NCBI GenBank assembly: GCA_903860935.1
Contig: CAIOSQ010000030.1
Coordinates: 1 to 40,501 of the forward strand
Direction of reading: 5' to 3'
DNA from: an uncultured Rhodospirillales bacterium
GTDB lineage: Bacteria; Pseudomonadota; Alphaproteobacteria; CACIAM-22H2
DNA length: 40,501 bases
Position numbers and translations under genes: made by a program. The number at the start of each line of letters is the position of its first letter. Position 1 is the first letter of the stretch. Below, piece by piece: positions 9,913-29,531 of the stretch. Under the pieces are notes generated by a model. It saw nothing but the letters and a program-made list of their open reading frames with translations, was not told where the DNA came from and did no database searches.

Positions 9913-10204
9913 GGTCGTCGCGCGCGTCCTCGATCGCCTGGACGATCGCTGCGATCATGCCGTCGTGCGAGGTTCGTGCTGCGGCCGCGCGCCGGATCTC
10001 GGCGACGAGACGCCAGAAGATCTGCCTCGCCGCGGCGTCAGCCTTGGCCGCCGGGCGCGGCGCGAAACCACCGCCGCCGGATCGACGCTCGGCGTCTTCC
10101 GCGGCGGCGACCGCACGCGCGACCCGTACGCCCGCAGGCCGATCAAGGCGCAGTGCGGTCTCGAGTTCGGCGATCAGTCGCCTCGTATCCTCTGCGGGCA
10201 TCAT
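9884..10204 (-). CDS. Hypothetical protein at the end of the fliF operon
   Basis: The 106-residue product is helical and charged, with a Gly/Pro-rich spacer near the middle (GGGGFAPRPAAK). No family is recognised. Its ATG overlaps the fliF stop codon (ATGA), so translation is probably coupled to fliF. Its 3' end overlaps the convergent secreted FliL-like gene. Position suggests a flagellar role, such as an export or MS-ring accessory, but there is no direct evidence. Confidence 0.6.
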   Translation of the reverse strand: MMPAEDTRRLIAELETALRLDRPAGVRVARAVAAAEDAERRSGGGGFAPRPAAKADAAARQIFWRLVAEIRRAAAARTSHDGMIAAIVQAIEDARDDLSEGPDASR

Positions 10205-17889: not shown

Positions 17890-18138
17890 TCAAGCGGACA
17901 GCGACAGCTTGCCCCCGCGCGGCTGCCGAACCCGACCACCGGCATCATAGCCTTGCGGCGGTGGGGTCGGCGGTGGCGCGGCATTCGCGTTCTCGGCGGC
18001 GTCCGCGCGCCGGCGTTCCTGTCGTTGCGCGAGGCGCTGTGCCTCGGCCGCGCGGCGGGCTTCGGCTTCTTCCGGCCCTGGACGGGTCGGACCAAGCATG
18101 CGATCGCGCAGCGGATGGGAGGCGACGGCCTGGCTCAT
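17890..18138 (-). CDS. Small hypothetical protein coupled to a J-domain gene
   Basis: The 82-residue product is unassigned. Its first half is a charged helix (PEEAEARRAAEAQRLAQRQE) and the second half is Pro/Gly-rich, ending GGRVRQPRGGKLSLSA. The start ATG overlaps the stop codon of the J-domain gene (ATGA), supporting that it is a real, co-translated gene. No membrane segment. It may be a partner of the upstream J-domain protein, but this is inference from position only. Confidence 0.55.
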   Translation of the reverse strand: MSQAVASHPLRDRMLGPTRPGPEEAEARRAAEAQRLAQRQERRRADAAENANAAPPPTPPPQGYDAGGRVRQPRGGKLSLSA

Positions 18139-18758
18139 GGACGATGGCGCTTCCTGCGCTCCTGGAGAACGTCGAAGATTCGCATGAAATAGCGGAATTC
18201 GGTCGACGACGCATCGGGGTCGTCGCGCGCCGCGGCCGAATCGGGGTGAAAGCGTCGCGCGAAGGCGCGACGAGCCGCTTCGAGGACGAAATCCGGTGCG
18301 TCGGGCGACAGGCCCACGCGCGCGTAGAGGGCGGCGGTCGAGTCCTGCCCATCCGCGTCGGCAGCCGTCTTCGCCGGGGCTGGGCCCGGCGCGGGTCCCG
18401 ACGCGATCTGCGACTTGAGCTGCAGGTAGGATCGTTCGAAATGGCGCGACCTTTGGCCGACAACCTGGAGCGTCTCCTCCAGTCGTGACATCTGCTGACG
18501 CAGAGCGTCCACGGTCTCCTCCAGGCTTCGTGCACGTTGCTCGCTTGCCGCGCGGCGCGGATCGACCGGATCGGGCATCGCAGGCGGCTCGTTGGTCTGC
18601 CTGCGTAGCGCTTCCTCGAGCGTGACCACGTGGTCCGCATCGCGTCTGCGCCAACGATAGGGCGTGCGGCGCTCCGCGGTACGAGGCTCCGGTCCGGGCG
18701 GGCGTCCGCGTCCGCCGAGCCTTTCGCGCAGACGCGCCAGCAAATCGAATCCAATCAC
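18135..18758 (-). CDS. Coiled-coil protein with C-terminal J-like domain
   Basis: The 207-residue product starts (GTG) GFDLLARLRERLGGRGRP, has a coiled coil around residues 70-115 (EQRARSLEETVDALRQQMSR), a Pro/Ala linker and a C-terminal domain with LYARVGLSPDAPDFVLEAAR followed by AFARRFHPD. The HPD tripeptide and its helix context match a DnaJ J-domain, which stimulates DnaK ATPase. There is no zinc finger or substrate domain of DnaJ. It lies between flgH and flgB, so it may help assemble a flagellar part; that is inference. GTG at 18758 is the first plausible start; the ribosome site is weak. Confidence 0.65.
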   Translation of the reverse strand: MIGFDLLARLRERLGGRGRPPGPEPRTAERRTPYRWRRRDADHVVTLEEALRRQTNEPPAMPDPVDPRRAASEQRARSLEETVDALRQQMSRLEETLQVVGQRSRHFERSYLQLKSQIASGPAPGPAPAKTAADADGQDSTAALYARVGLSPDAPDFVLEAARRAFARRFHPDSAAARDDPDASSTEFRYFMRIFDVLQERRKRHRP

Positions 18759-18881
18759 AGCGCGACAGCGTATCGGCCCGATCCAGCGCCCTGAAGCCGA
18801 AGACAGGTCCGAATCGGACACGGTGCGACTCGGCTGACGCGCTGGTGCCCGTATCGTCGGTATCGAAGCGAGGGTGACTTC

Positions 18882-19274
18882 ATGTCGAACACGGCGAAGC
18901 TTCTGGAAGGGGCGATGCGCTGGTGGTCCGCGAGGGGCGGGATCATCGCGTCCAATGTCGCACGCGCGGACATCCCTGGTGAGAGGTCGCGCGATTTCGC
19001 TCAGACGCTGGCCGAGCATGTACGAAACCCCGCGCCCGCGAAGCTTGGCCTTGCCGCTACCGATGCGGGTCACCGTATCGGGCGACTTGCGGAGGCCGAC
19101 CGGCTGGCGAAGGTGGCCGAGGAGCGCAACGGCTCCGTGATCAGCGGCAACGAGATTTCGGTGGAGGACGAGATGATGAAACTGGCGGAAGTCGCTTCGC
19201 AGCATCAGCTCGCCGCCGCGACGTACCGCAAGAACGTCTCGCTGCTGCGGCTCGCGCTGCGCGGAGGACGTTGA
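18882..19274 (+). CDS. flgB: Flagellar basal-body rod protein FlgB
   Basis: FlgB is the most proximal rod protein. The 130-residue product has MRWWSARGGIIASNVARADI with the PGE(R)SRDF continuation, in place of the usual AxNiANadTPgyka, and the C-terminal helix SVEDEMMKLAEVASQHQLAA followed by TYRKNVSLLRLAL, typical of FlgB. The start codon of flgC overlaps the stop (TGATG). It heads flgB-flgC-fliE-fliQ-fliM. The 123 bases upstream hold no recognisable sigma-54 site; a 13-base palindrome with 6-bp arms lies at 18807-18819. Confidence 0.93.
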   Translation: MSNTAKLLEGAMRWWSARGGIIASNVARADIPGERSRDFAQTLAEHVRNPAPAKLGLAATDAGHRIGRLAEADRLAKVAEERNGSVISGNEISVEDEMMKLAEVASQHQLAAATYRKNVSLLRLALRGGR

Positions 19275-19686: not shown

Positions 19687-19965
19687 ATGAAGATCGACTC
19701 CCTCCATGCCGGGACGGCCCAGGGCCTCCAGGCGAAGCCCGCCGCGGGCAAGGCCTTCGACGATGTCCTCAAGGCAACCTACCGCGAGGCCGCACGCGCC
19801 GTCTCGGGCGTCGAGGAGGCCAATCGGCAGGTTGCACTCGGGGTCGCGGACGTCGACGCCGTTGCCACGACAGTGGCCGATGCGGAAATCATGCTGGAAA
19901 CGCTCGTGACCATCCGGGACAAGCTGGTTACCGCCTACAACGACCTCGTGCGCACGCCGGTTTGA
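19687..19965 (+). CDS. fliE: Hook-basal body complex protein FliE
   Basis: FliE joins the MS ring to the rod. The 92-residue product has the family end: FDDVLKATYREAARAVSGVE, NRQVALGVADVDAVATTVAD and AEIMLETLVTIRDKLVTAYN, then DLVRTPV. Typical FliE length is about 100 residues. It lies between flgC and fliQ, a conserved order. Confidence 0.94.
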   Translation: MKIDSLHAGTAQGLQAKPAAGKAFDDVLKATYREAARAVSGVEEANRQVALGVADVDAVATTVADAEIMLETLVTIRDKLVTAYNDLVRTPV

Positions 19966-19976
19966 GCCGCCGCGCC

Positions 19977-20265
19977 ATGGATGCGATCGCGTTCCTGACC
20001 TTGTGCGGAGAAGCCATGCGCGTGACGGCGCTCGTGGCCGGTCCGCCGATCGCGGCGGCGTTCTTCGTCGGCGGCGCGATCGCGATGCTTCAGGCGGTGA
20101 CGCAGATACAGGAAATGACGATCACCTTCGTCCCAAAGGTCGTGGCGATCGCCGCGATCATGTTCCTGGCGGGAACCGCGTCGCTCGACGCGCTGCAAGG
20201 TTTTGGGTGCCAGGACCACCGATCTCATCAAGGAGTACAGGCATGTCGCCGGCAGACCTGGTTGA
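19977..20265 (+). CDS. fliQ: Flagellar export-gate protein FliQ, apparent frameshift
   Basis: FliQ is a two-helix membrane component of the export gate. Residues 1-76 are clearly FliQ: FLTLCGEAMRVTALVAGPPI, FVGGAIAMLQAVTQIQEMTI and TFVPKVVAIAAIMFLAG. After LDALQGF (near 20204) the frame runs on as unrelated sequence to 20456, overlapping fliM by over 200 bases. Shifting by +1 at the TTTTGGG run (20201-20207) restores ARTTDLIKEYRHVAGRPG and a stop at 20265, giving a protein of about 95 residues, close to the family size. One extra base is therefore likely. This may be an assembly error, a real mutation or a programmed shift. Confidence 0.85.
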
Positions 20266-21226
20266 GGGCGCCTCCGACTCTCAGCCATCGCGGGCCGAAC
20301 TGTCGTCCGAGGAGATCTCGGCCCTGCTCGCCGGCCGCCCAGCCGAACCGCTGGGTGGGATCAAGGCGTACATCGACCGTGTCGCCCAGGATGCGCAGGC
20401 CAGCAACCGGATGCCGATGCTGGAAATCATCCTCGACCGCTTCGTGCGTTCCGTGAACACCACGATGCGGAACTTCACGTCCGAGAATGTCGACATCTCG
20501 ATGGATAACGTCACCACTCAACGTTACGACGAGTTCCTCAACGCGCTGTCGGTGCCGACGATGATCGCGATGCTCCGGTCGCAGAAATGGAGCAACTACG
20601 CATTGGTCGTGGTCGAGGCGCCGTTGACGTACGCGGTCGTCGACGTCCTGCTCGGCGGTCGTCATGGCGGCGACCTGCGCGGCCTGGAAGGACGCAGCTT
20701 CACGACGATCGAGCGACGGATGATCGAACGGGTGATCCGTACGCTCGTCGGTGACCTGACGGCGTCCTTTTCGGCGATAGGCGATCCCGGCTTCGCATTC
20801 GACCGGCTCGAGACCAATCCGAAATTCGTCATGCTGGCGCGGCCGGAGACGCCGACGACTGTCGCGACATTCCGCTTCTACATGGAAGACCGCGGCGGCA
20901 AGTTCATGGTCGCGCTGCCTGCCAACCTGCTCTACCCGGTCAAGGACCAACTCGCCCAGCCGTTTCTTGGCGAGTCCTCCGACAACGACGCGACCTGGAA
21001 AGAAACGCTCGGTGGTCAGGTCGGTGCCGCGCCGGTCCGTGTCGATGCAGTGATCGACAAGCTGACGCTGTCGCTCGACGAGGTCTTGTCCTGGCGGCCG
21101 GGATCGCGACTGGTCCTCAATGCCACCCCCGCGTCGCAGGTTGAACTGCGGGCCGACAGCCTGACCATCGCGCGTGGCGAGATGGGGCGGGTGGGGTCGC
21201 GGATCGCGGTCCGGATCCAATCGTGA
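20243..21226 (+). CDS. fliM: Flagellar motor switch protein FliM
   Basis: FliM forms part of the C ring and receives CheY-P. The 327-residue product has an acidic N-terminus with RAELSSEEISALLAGRPA, then the CheC-like middle domain (RFVRSVNTTMRNFTSENVDI, RSQKWSNYALVVVEAPLTYA, VVDVLLGGRHGGD) and the C-terminal SpoA domain (LGGQVGAAPVRVDAVIDKLT, LSLDEVLSWRPGSRLVLN). The N-terminal CheY-binding LSQxEIDALL is altered to LSSEEISALL. ATG at 20243 lies inside the corrected fliQ tail. Confidence 0.95.
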   Translation: MSPADLVEGASDSQPSRAELSSEEISALLAGRPAEPLGGIKAYIDRVAQDAQASNRMPMLEIILDRFVRSVNTTMRNFTSENVDISMDNVTTQRYDEFLNALSVPTMIAMLRSQKWSNYALVVVEAPLTYAVVDVLLGGRHGGDLRGLEGRSFTTIERRMIERVIRTLVGDLTASFSAIGDPGFAFDRLETNPKFVMLARPETPTTVATFRFYMEDRGGKFMVALPANLLYPVKDQLAQPFLGESSDNDATWKETLGGQVGAAPVRVDAVIDKLTLSLDEVLSWRPGSRLVLNATPASQVELRADSLTIARGEMGRVGSRIAVRIQS

Positions 21227-21612
21227 CCGACGGCATCGATCTTCACGTCGCATGGCAGGCGGCGCAGACGCTCCTCGTGCTCGCGATGCTGGGCGTCATG
21301 TGGCGGCTTCACAGGCGGCTTGATTCCCTTCGCGCGGCGCGGGACGAGGCCAGCGAGTGGCTGGAACAGTTCTCCAAGCTGATCGCGCGGACAGAAGCCG
21401 CCCTGCGGCAGGCCAGGCAGCCGGCCCCTGCGCCGGTGACGAATATCAACGAGGCGAAACGCGATGCGAGCGAAAGAACCCCGGACGGTGCGGCAAGGCA
21501 GCCCGACCCTCTCCGCCCGCCCCCTTCAGACCCCGCGCGCCGCGGAGCGCCTGACGCCGCAACCGGAGCCAAAATCGCCAAGCTCGAGGACATCCTTGGA
21601 CGTCTCCGCTAA
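21223..21612 (+). CDS. FliM-adjacent membrane protein, DUF6468-like
   Basis: The 129-residue product has an N-terminal membrane helix (about residues 9-27), a charged coiled coil (RLHRRLDSLRAARDEASEWL, then EQFSKLIARTEAALRQARQ) and a disordered Pro/Ala/Arg tail ending KIAKLEDILGRLR. This layout and position after fliM match the DUF6468 proteins of alphaproteobacterial flagellar operons, which have no assigned function. It starts with GTG overlapping the fliM stop. Confidence 0.65.
   Translation: MTDGIDLHVAWQAAQTLLVLAMLGVMWRLHRRLDSLRAARDEASEWLEQFSKLIARTEAALRQARQPAPAPVTNINEAKRDASERTPDGAARQPDPLRPPPSDPARRGAPDAATGAKIAKLEDILGRLR
21586..21590 (+). promoter_or_regulatory. Ribosome binding site supporting a TTG start for the MotE-like gene
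   Basis: GAGGA sits 5 bases before an in-frame TTG at 21596. This favours the TTG start over the earlier ATG at 21464, which would make the gene overlap its neighbour by 149 bases. Confidence 0.5.
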
Positions 21613-22345
21613 GCGCGGCGGCGCGGGACGCGCCCTGCTTACCGCGTTCACGGCCCTGTCGATCGCAGGTGTCCTGAGCCTATGGGTCGGGGCGCCACGC
21701 GCCGGCACGCCTGAGACCGGAGCGGCGGCTCGTGTCGCCGCGCCATCGCAGACCGCGGCGTCCGTGCCCACGGCTTCGTGGCCGCGGCCAGTGACGGATC
21801 CGTTGGACCTGACGCCTGAGCGCATGCGTCTGCTGGAACAGGCCGGCGACCTGCTGCGCGCGGTCCAGGAGCGCGAGGAGAAGATCGCGCTGCGCGAACG
21901 TCTTCTCGACGCCGGTCGAGCCGAACTCGAACGCAAGCTGGCGCTCTTCGAACGCGACTCCGCGGGTAGCCGCGACCGGATCCGCCAGGCCCTGGAGCGC
22001 GACCTTGCCGAGCGCGAAGTGCGCCTGGCCGAGAAGGAGAAGGAACTGGCGGGGCGAGAGGCCGCGGTCGCGAGCGTCCAGGACGACATGAAGCGCCAGG
22101 TGGGACAGCAATTTGACCAGATCGTCGGCTCGTATCTCGGGCTGAAGCCCAAGCGCGCGGCGCGCATCCTCGAGGAGCGCGGCGCGGCCGAGGCTGCGGT
22201 CATTCTCTTCCTCATGCCCGACGACGCGCGCAACCGGATCCTCGGCGAGATGGACCCCGCCGTCGTCGCGTCGATCCTCAAGACCCCCTTTGCTGATCGG
22301 ATATTGCCGGCGCGGAGCGCGGCGAACGCCCGTACCCAGCCGTGA
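21596..22345 (+). CDS. motE: MotE-like protein with MgtE N-terminal-type domain
   Basis: MotE in Sinorhizobium is a periplasmic chaperone specific for MotC. The 249-residue product has an N-terminal membrane anchor or signal (ALLTAFTALSIAGVLSLWVG), a low-complexity linker, a long coiled coil (about residues 70-180, REEKIALRERLLDAGRAELE onward) and a C-terminal MgtE_N-like helical domain (SYLGLKPKRAARILEERGAA, EAAVILFLMPDDARNRILGE and MDPAVVASILK). These features and the position in the fliM-motB region fit the MotE/MgtE_N flagellar family. The start is TTG with a GAGGA ribosome site; ATG at 21464 is an alternative. Confidence 0.75.
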   Translation: MDVSAKRGGAGRALLTAFTALSIAGVLSLWVGAPRAGTPETGAAARVAAPSQTAASVPTASWPRPVTDPLDLTPERMRLLEQAGDLLRAVQEREEKIALRERLLDAGRAELERKLALFERDSAGSRDRIRQALERDLAEREVRLAEKEKELAGREAAVASVQDDMKRQVGQQFDQIVGSYLGLKPKRAARILEERGAAEAAVILFLMPDDARNRILGEMDPAVVASILKTPFADRILPARSAANARTQP

Positions 22346-22707
22346 GGATGACGTTGGGTGCCCTACTCGCGGTCGCGGCAACCGGCGCAGTGGCCGCCCA
22401 GGACGTCCGCGTCGACTATCCCAAGATGATCATTCGGGTGCCGGCTGCAGGGGGATTGCCGCCGGCGCTCTCGATCGCGCCGACCGCCTATCTGCCGGCC
22501 GACGCGCTGGACACCGCCCAGCGTCGGGAAGGCCAGATCCGCGGTCGGATCTTCGACGCCGTGGCGAAGGCCTATCAGGCCCTTCCAGCGGGTGGCGCGG
22601 CAGGGCTCGACATCAAGCTGCTCGAGGAGCGTATCGCGGCGGAGGTCGCCGACATCGCCGGCGGTGGCCCCGTGAGGATCGTCTTCCGCGAATTCTCCCT
22701 GCGCTAG
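22342..22707 (+). CDS. Secreted FliL-like hypothetical protein
   Basis: The roughly 121-residue product has a signal peptide (MTLGALLAVAATGAVAA-QD) and a mature domain with IRGRIFDAVAKAYQALPAGG, LDIKLLEERIAAEVADIA and the terminal GPVRIVFREFSLR. The helix-helix-strand ending resembles the FliL C-terminus (V.f.eFviq). It is not clearly FliL, which lies at 30420. GTG at 22342 overlaps the stop of the MotE-like gene; an ATG at 22348 is an alternative start. Confidence 0.65.
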   Translation: MRMTLGALLAVAATGAVAAQDVRVDYPKMIIRVPAAGGLPPALSIAPTAYLPADALDTAQRREGQIRGRIFDAVAKAYQALPAGGAAGLDIKLLEERIAAEVADIAGGGPVRIVFREFSLR

Positions 22708-24356: not shown

Positions 24357-24652
24357 ACGTCCTGCTGTCCCCGGGGGCCGGGTTCCTCGTTCTTGCGCTC
24401 GGCGGCGCTGGCGCCCTGATCGTGCTGCTGCTTCATGCACGGCTGCAGGCGGATCTTGAAGGATTGCTCATGCGGCAGCGCCAGGCGAGCGCCGATCTTC
24501 GCCGGATCCGTGTCGACGCGGCGGCCGTTCGCAGCGAGGCGGAGAAGGTGGCGTCGAAACTCACGGTTACGCGCGACTATCTCGGCGCCGAACTCACCAA
24601 GGCGCTCGAGCCGCCGAAGCCGGCCCGCAGACCAGCGCGGCGCGGCGGATGA
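24353..24652 (+). CDS. Small membrane coiled-coil protein after motB
   Basis: The 99-residue product has a membrane helix (about residues 10-28, FLVLALGGAGALIVLLLHAR) followed by a coiled coil (ADLEGLLMRQRQASADLRRI, then VRSEAEKVASKLTVTRDYLG) and a basic, Pro-rich tail. It overlaps motB at the start and the MotC-like gene at the end, so all three are probably co-translated. Unknown function; possible stator accessory. Confidence 0.6.
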   Translation: MNVLLSPGAGFLVLALGGAGALIVLLLHARLQADLEGLLMRQRQASADLRRIRVDAAAVRSEAEKVASKLTVTRDYLGAELTKALEPPKPARRPARRGG

Positions 24653-25872
24653 CCGCAATGAGGATCGCTACCCTCCTGCTGGTCGCGCTGCTGTCCGCCG
24701 GTGCGCCAAGTTCCGCCGCCGCGCAGACACAGTCCGGCGTGTCGATGGAGGCAGCGGCGGCGTCGGCACGCGCGCTTGCGGCGCGCAAGGATATGGATGC
24801 CGCGCGCGCCATCGTACGGGCGGCCAACGCTTATGCCAGCGGGGCCTCCGGCGGGCGCACGATTCCCGAGACCCAGCGTTTGGCCTTCGAGGCGCTGCTC
24901 GCGGTGCACGCTGGCGCATCGGTAGACTGGCTGGCGCGTGACGAGGCCATGCGCGCGCGGATCCGGGACGCCCGCACGTTGATCGGTGCGATCCGGCGTC
25001 CGGCCAAAGCAAAGCCGGAGACGGTCGCCGCGGCGATCGGGGACGAGACCTGCCCGATCCTGCTCGACATCTCGACGATCCGGCCGGGCGAGGCGCGCCT
25101 CGTCGTCTCCGACGTGCTTGAGGCGGGGCTCGAATTCTCCGATGCCCAGAAGCGCTGCCTGGTTCGCGCTGTCGCCGCGAATCCCGAATTCGCGCATGGT
25201 GACCTGCCGCCGCTCGGCCAACTGGCGGCGGAGAAGGACGACGCGGCCCTCGCGCTGCTCATCCAGATGGCGGCCGCGCAGGGTAGCTTCGCTCAAGCCC
25301 TCGCCTTTGCGGCCGAGACGACCGATCCGGCGCAGCGCGCGCGCATGCAGACGGCGGTCGTCGCGATGCGCCAATTCGATTCGATAGCCCTCCCCGAACC
25401 CGACCTGCTGCGCGCGCTGTGGACGAATACGCGCCAGCGTGGTGGTTCCGAGCGCCTGCTCTTCGGGTCGTTGCTCGCGGCGCGCGCCCCGCCCGGATTC
25501 TGGACGGCGGAGGCAGCCGCGGTCGCCGAGTTCGCGGCCAGCGACGCGGCTGCCCAGGCGGTGATCGCGCTTGCCGCCCGCCGTGCACTTGTGAGCGCGC
25601 CAGCGGATGCGCGTGGCGCCCTGTGGGCAACTGTGCCGCGCATGCGCCCGCCGAGTGAGTTCCTCGTCCTTCATGCCGCCCTGTCGGATCCGGCGACCGA
25701 GCTGGCGATATCTCCGGGCAATGATCCGGCGGTCATCCGTGCGCTCCGCGTGGCGCGTTCGCCGGCAGCCTCGTTCGGGCGCGTCCTCGGCGAATTCCCG
25801 CCCGGCACGGCGGGAGCCCTTGATGTCGCGGTGCTCGTGATCTCCGCCATCGGCGCGCCGCGCGCGGACTGA
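24649..25872 (+). CDS. Periplasmic helical protein, MotC-like candidate
   Basis: The 407-residue product has a signal peptide (RIATLLLVALLSAGAPSSAA-AQ) and is otherwise Ala-rich helical, with repeated helix pairs such as QKRCLVRAVAANPEFAHGDL, KDDAALALLIQMAAAQGSFA and DAAAQAVIALAARRALV. In Sinorhizobium motB is followed by motC (a periplasmic motility protein) and motE; here a MotE-like gene, motB and this protein lie close together, so MotC is a reasonable guess. Sequence similarity to MotC could not be tested. Two cysteines (in ETCPILLDIS and QKRCL) could form a disulfide. Confidence 0.6.
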   Translation: MTAMRIATLLLVALLSAGAPSSAAAQTQSGVSMEAAAASARALAARKDMDAARAIVRAANAYASGASGGRTIPETQRLAFEALLAVHAGASVDWLARDEAMRARIRDARTLIGAIRRPAKAKPETVAAAIGDETCPILLDISTIRPGEARLVVSDVLEAGLEFSDAQKRCLVRAVAANPEFAHGDLPPLGQLAAEKDDAALALLIQMAAAQGSFAQALAFAAETTDPAQRARMQTAVVAMRQFDSIALPEPDLLRALWTNTRQRGGSERLLFGSLLAARAPPGFWTAEAAAVAEFAASDAAAQAVIALAARRALVSAPADARGALWATVPRMRPPSEFLVLHAALSDPATELAISPGNDPAVIRALRVARSPAASFGRVLGEFPPGTAGALDVAVLVISAIGAPRAD

Positions 25873-28131: not shown

Positions 28132-28232
28132 GGAGGTTCCGTCCGTAGCACGCCCGGCCCGGCGCATTGGTCCGTTCCGGATTAGATGCCGAACCGGTGC
28201 ATATCCCGTCTGGCTACGTTTTCATCGAAGCG

Positions 28233-29531
28233 ATGGGTTCAATGTGGAATTTCCTTTCAGGAATCTTTGGTGGGCGCAGGTCCGGCTCCGCCCCCGCGCG
28301 TGCGGCATCCGCCGATGCGCCCGCGCCCGAGCTGGTGCGTCTCGACGAGCTCGAGAAGCTCGAGGTTGCGAGCCGCCATATGTTCGACCTCGATGCCGGG
28401 CGCTACGAAGGTCGTCTTTTCGTCATCAGCCTCGACACGATCCGCCAGCGCTACGGCAATACCTGGCGCTACATTGCCGAGAAGGCGCAGCGTACCGCAC
28501 GCAACCACATCACCCAGGCGCTCGGCCCGGGAGACGAGTGCGTTCCGGTCGGCGACGTCGATTTCCTGGTCGCGATACTCTCAGGCTCCAGGCGCGAGGC
28601 TCCGGCGCGCGCGCTCCGCATAGACCAGGGTGTCAGCTACGCGGTGACCGGAGAGGATCTTGGGATCCTCGGCGTATCGGCTAAGCAGGTGCAGATCGCC
28701 GAGGGTGGCCCCTTGTCCTTCCGCCCGCTGTCGCACGCCGATCTCGAGCGCGCGGAAGCTCCACAGAGCCCGACCATCGACCTTGAGTCGGAACTCCTCG
28801 ACGACGAGGAAGAGGACGATTCCTTCCCGACGATCGATGCCGTTCTGGACGCGCTCGTATTCCGTGTCGAGCCCATCGCGCGCCTTACGGACCAGACAGT
28901 CGTCTTCGAGCGGCTGGCTGCGTTTTCGCCGCCACTCGGCGAAACCTCCGACGAGTGGACGATCGTCGAGAACTTTCCCGATCCGAAGGTGCGGGCGAAG
29001 ATGGACCTCAAGTGCCTGAAGGCCTGCCGGGCACATCTGCGGCGGGTCGCCGCCGAGCGCAGCGGGCGTCGGGTGGTCGTCCCGGTGTTCTTCGAGACGC
29101 TGGCGAACAACTACACCCGCGGACTGTTCCTCAAGATGGCCCAGAAGATCCCCCAGCCCGCGCGCAAGTCGCTCGTCTTCCATGTCGGCGGCGTCCCCGC
29201 GGGCGTCGCGCAGTCGCGCCTTGCCGAACTCGGCGCCGTCATCAAGCCGTTCTCGAGCGGAGCCCTCATCGGTTTGCCGCCCGAGTTCACCGGCCTCGAT
29301 GGCCTTCGAGATCTCGTCCTGGTCGGCCTCACCGTCGACGCGCCGCGGCCCGAGGACGCCGGGACGCTGTTGTCGGCGGCGCACGGCGCTGGGTTGCCGA
29401 CCTGGGTGTCCGGTCTGAGGGACGAGGACGACCGTCAGCGTGCGCTCATTCTTGGCGCCGCATATGGCTCGGGTCCGCTCTATCCCTCCCGAGTGCCGTC
29501 GACTGCCGACGACGCGGAACCGGAGAGTTGA
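28233..29531 (+). CDS. Degenerate EAL-type (c-di-GMP phosphodiesterase-like) protein
   Basis: The 432-residue product starts MGSMWNFLSGIFGGRRSG. Its N-terminal half (GRLFVISLDTIRQRYGNTWR, then DECVPVGDVDFLVAILSGS) could be a degenerate GGDEF-like domain. An acidic stretch (DLESELLDDEEEDD) links to a C-terminal half with EAL order: VFRVEPIARLTDQTVVFERL, RRVVVPVFFETLANNYTRG, HVGGVPAGVAQSRLAELGAV, and LLSAAHGAGLPTWVSGLRDE. The EAL, DDFGTG and glutamate motifs needed for catalysis are not seen, so it is probably a non-catalytic c-di-GMP effector or scaffold. It is 9 bases upstream of motA, suggesting a stator link. Confidence 0.6.
   Translation: MGSMWNFLSGIFGGRRSGSAPARAASADAPAPELVRLDELEKLEVASRHMFDLDAGRYEGRLFVISLDTIRQRYGNTWRYIAEKAQRTARNHITQALGPGDECVPVGDVDFLVAILSGSRREAPARALRIDQGVSYAVTGEDLGILGVSAKQVQIAEGGPLSFRPLSHADLERAEAPQSPTIDLESELLDDEEEDDSFPTIDAVLDALVFRVEPIARLTDQTVVFERLAAFSPPLGETSDEWTIVENFPDPKVRAKMDLKCLKACRAHLRRVAAERSGRRVVVPVFFETLANNYTRGLFLKMAQKIPQPARKSLVFHVGGVPAGVAQSRLAELGAVIKPFSSGALIGLPPEFTGLDGLRDLVLVGLTVDAPRPEDAGTLLSAAHGAGLPTWVSGLRDEDDRQRALILGAAYGSGPLYPSRVPSTADDAEPES

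Follow-up and report, generated by a model that had tools for sequence, protein, structure and literature searches.

The window analysed here, a stretch of 40,501 nucleotides read on its forward strand, belongs to a draft genome of 4.59 Mb in 468 contigs. It carries fliQ, with the ATG at 19977, between two intact genes on the same strand. The upstream neighbour, fliE (19687..19965), belongs to Pfam PF02049 and matches its congeneric counterparts over the full length. Downstream, fliM (20243..21226) encodes 327 residues, matches Pfam PF02154 (E = 4.4e-43) and is 92% identical to congeneric FliM, again over the full length. The gene order fliE, fliQ, fliM is the same in two congeneric metagenome genomes (G001 and G002). 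A putative Shine-Dalgarno sequence of fliM, AAGGAG, was seen at 20230..20235 within the tail of fliQ. The start of fliM overlaps the original end of fliQ by 23 bases, as it does in the congeners.

Reading frames of fliQ

Translation from 19977 gave FliQ over residues 1–77 (19977..20207). The initial annotation had assigned the first 76 residues to FliQ; the assignment stands, with the last such residue being number 77, at 20205–20207. Nearly all of the conserved Pfam domain lies in this in-frame part. Frame 0 matched PF01313 (Bac_export_3) over profile positions 3–72 of 74 with an E-value of 1.4e-18, and the match, covering residues 7–76, scored 67 bits against a curated cut-off of 25, which places the product in the family. 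For the NCBIfam equivalog TIGR01402, which requires more than 88.9 bits, the window FliQ scored 63.0. The intact FliQ of a congener, at 68.6 bits, was likewise below that value; the window type of FliQ is therefore divergent apart from the lesion described below.

Past residue 77, frame 0 showed no similarity to FliQ. It remains open for 82 further codons (20208..20456, forward strand), up to a stop at 20454–20456 inside fliM, and this run-on overlaps fliM in the wrong frame and is unlike any FliQ C-terminus. Read from 19977, frame 0 encodes 159 residues, whereas a FliQ that carries its proper C-terminal tail in the same frame usually has roughly 85–95.

The missing C-terminus was found in the +1 frame. 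Translation of 20209..20265 on the same strand gave ARTTDLIKEYRHVAGRPG, followed by a stop at 20263–20265. Compared with the genuine C-termini of FliQ in the two congeners, this tail had 14/18 and 12/18 residues in common. Tblastn also picked it up as a match apart from the rest of the gene, in a different frame (E = 2e-6 and 2e-5), and chance therefore does not account for this open frame. Both results bear out the initial proposal of a +1 frameshift in fliQ, with the C-terminus restored and a stop at 20265. It may be noted that the overlap with the fliM start (20243) and with the putative ribosome-binding site (20230–20235) partly explains the conservation of the tail at the nucleotide level, so that tail conservation alone is no proof of translation here.

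FliQ in relatives and in the second flagellar set

In both congeners FliQ is intact and has 95 residues, 88% and 87% of which are identical to the window sequence over residues 1–77. Their C-termini read LRTTELVKEYRNVAGRPG or LRSTELVKEYKNVAGRPG, and their stop lies in the same place as the +1-frame stop of the window. We surveyed 27 further FliQ genes. Other genomes of the class supplied 26 of them and the second flagellar set of this genome the remaining one; another locus, which gave no readable match, was left out. All 27 close in a single frame, and the shift was found neither in these nor in the two congeners. FliQ thus does not naturally end in the long frame-0 tail. Homologues with such a tail, which would have spoken against a frameshift, were not among these 29 other FliQs, two of which are about 88% identical to the window protein. 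The initial annotation had also suggested looking for the same run in relatives; TTTT is missing from both congeners.

Searches with the window FliQ gave no match in the viral collection and nothing beyond the same two congeners in the named genome collection. Within the same genome, a search for a second allele or a duplicate of the locus returned only the window itself. A structure model of a congener FliQ (three sequences; mean pLDDT 58.8, a low confidence) has a single helix over residues 51–91. The shift would break this modelled helix, in a model of too low confidence to be used.

The genome holds two flagellar export gene sets. One comprises window positions 10201–39118 together with contigs C174 and C242, and the other lies on C461 (fliQ, fliR, and fliP) and C82 (flhA). 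The second-set fliQ is intact and encodes 88 residues. The window FliQ is 35% identical to it, and the window set is the divergent one: among 23 genomes of the order compared, none but this genome and the two congeners yielded a FliQ of the window type. Since a second export set is present, motility need not be lost through a broken window fliQ alone. This weakens the initial reasoning, which took fliQ to be indispensable for export.

The extra base and the surrounding genes

From start to stop, fliQ has 289 bases in the window and 288 in the congeners. Alignment to the two congeners placed the net gain of one base within 20196..20211 of the forward strand, a substitution-rich stretch in which 7 of 15 positions are mismatched, compared with 18% in the remaining fliQ (binomial P about 0.01, a weak result as the stretch was picked post hoc). 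All 16 possible gap positions in 20196–20211 scored within one mismatch of the best, and the extra base is consequently not assignable to the T run or to the G run. The motif TTTTGGG, to which the shift had initially been pinned, is indeed present at 20201–20207, but the placement is ambiguous over about 16 bases. The motif itself is unremarkable, occurring once in the window against 1.04 expected by chance.

The integrity of the neighbourhood was assessed on 25 frames of the window. Compared with the congeners, 22 of these match in one frame over the full or nearly the full length, and fliQ is the exception. The remaining two were uncounted: fliL, which has no match, at the point where the contig of the relative ends, and a minus-strand frame at 18135–19205. 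In roughly 60 kb of homologous DNA (a rough sum of alignments over five contigs, namely the window, C461, C174, C242, and C82), fliQ was the only sense-strand gene split between frames. Apparent extra frameshifts in the other contigs proved to be antisense or shadow reading frames. Identity to the congeners is 88% for the FliQ body, between 80% for FliE and 92% for FliM. As the FliQ body is conserved like its neighbours and without decay, the change is not old.

The long minus-strand frame at 18135–19205 has no Pfam match and overlaps flgB (18882–19274). Its single-frame match to congeners covers only a conserved part, about 18138–18878, and the gene there is accordingly probably shorter than the longest open frame. 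Four frames in the flagellar cluster (24649–25872, 28167–29531, 21464–22345, and 22342–22707) are conserved in congeners at about 65–82% identity and matched no Pfam or NCBIfam family.

Origin of the frameshift

With an undecayed fliQ body, an intact operon and no other split gene in roughly 60 kb, the change is an isolated, recent, and accidental frameshift in fliQ. We lean toward a local consensus error in the fragmented draft assembly as its cause. Apart from a net gain of one base close to its 3′ end, within 20196–20211, the fliQ of the window is normal. We infer that this gain, which is accidental and has no designed role, arose during sequencing or assembly rather than in the cell. The organism itself would then hold an intact fliQ of about 95 residues, ending at 20265 and overlapping the start of fliM. 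Such an error is expected to show as a lone event within a gene and operon that are otherwise intact and conserved, as found here. The mismatch cluster around the indel would fit a locally poor consensus, but the fit is a weak one, as the substitutions could equally be natural. Two points count against a consensus error. One event in about 60 kb means that the assembly is not visibly error-rich, and isolated frameshifts near a 3′ end are likelier than others to be real indels tolerated by the protein (Antonov et al. 2013, PMC3711429).

The same points lend weight to the view that the sequenced population really did gain a base recently, a quite possible cause that we rate somewhat below an error. 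The product would keep residues 1–77, and with them nearly the whole conserved domain, lose its last 18 residues and gain 82 unrelated ones; the window flagellar set would probably be impaired while the second export set could still work. The break lies at the 3′ end, just past the conserved Pfam domain, in a position believed to be richer in tolerated indels (PMC3711429), and the second set, with its own fliP, fliR, flhA, and intact fliQ, could relax selection. Indel frameshifts are moreover a common route of gene loss, accounting for 81/137 putative pseudogenizations in one Xanthomonas genome (PMC3826837). However, no other compared gene of the flagellar cluster is broken, any such lesion must be very recent, given the full conservation of the fliQ body, and the extra base has no second isolate to show it.

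Error and lesion thus both survive from the three causes offered initially; the third, a programmed +1 ribosomal frameshift, is very improbable. Such a shift, around GGT-TTT-GGG, would make full-length FliQ, and it would account for the C-terminus and stop restored in the +1 frame. The site is also surrounded by codons that this genome seldom uses (TTT 3.0 and TGC 2.8 per 1000). Yet neither congener has the site or needs a shift, nor do the 27 further FliQ genes need one; the heptamer occurs about as often as chance predicts; and the RNA that follows does not exceed its shuffles in stability (z = −0.37), so that a stimulatory structure is absent. With prfB-type programmed frameshifting the site shares the +1 direction, but it has no in-frame stop codon, no conservation in relatives and no stimulator that we could find. 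That a lineage-specific programmed +1 shift tunes the dose of the full-length export-gate subunit in one of the two flagellar systems is an equally far-fetched idea. Hardly credible at all is the idea that FliQ of this species naturally ends in the long frame-0 tail. No stop interrupts frame 0 along the 82 codons of the run-on, but in this G+C-rich DNA wrong frames often stay open over long distances; the tail lies in the wrong frame of fliM, the conserved C-terminus can still be read in the +1 frame, and the congeners contradict such an ending, which no other surveyed FliQ has.

Flagellar genes can phase-vary by slippage in a homopolymer, as in fliP of Helicobacter pylori. The window fliQ is likewise a flagellar export gene that is off by one base, but its run of TTTT followed by GGG is too short for high-frequency slippage and is absent in relatives. 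The closest likeness is with the singleton indel frameshifts that were classified with GeneTack as sequencing errors or recent pseudogenes (Antonov et al. 2013, PMC3711429). Like these, the fliQ shift occurs in one genome only, is validated by homology, has no conserved motif at its site and lies near the 3′ end, and nothing notable sets it apart from them.

The frameshift is real in the assembled sequence but most likely not in the organism, and it is ordinary either way. Its first consequence is for annotation: automatic calling would make fliQ too long or label it a pseudogene, a slip that could lead to a false claim that the organism is non-motile. The locus holds no new biology unless the extra base is real. 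In that case, ribosomes translating fliQ would run past the fliM start out of frame and terminate within fliM, about 210 bases from its start, a passage that could also disturb the coupling to fliM.
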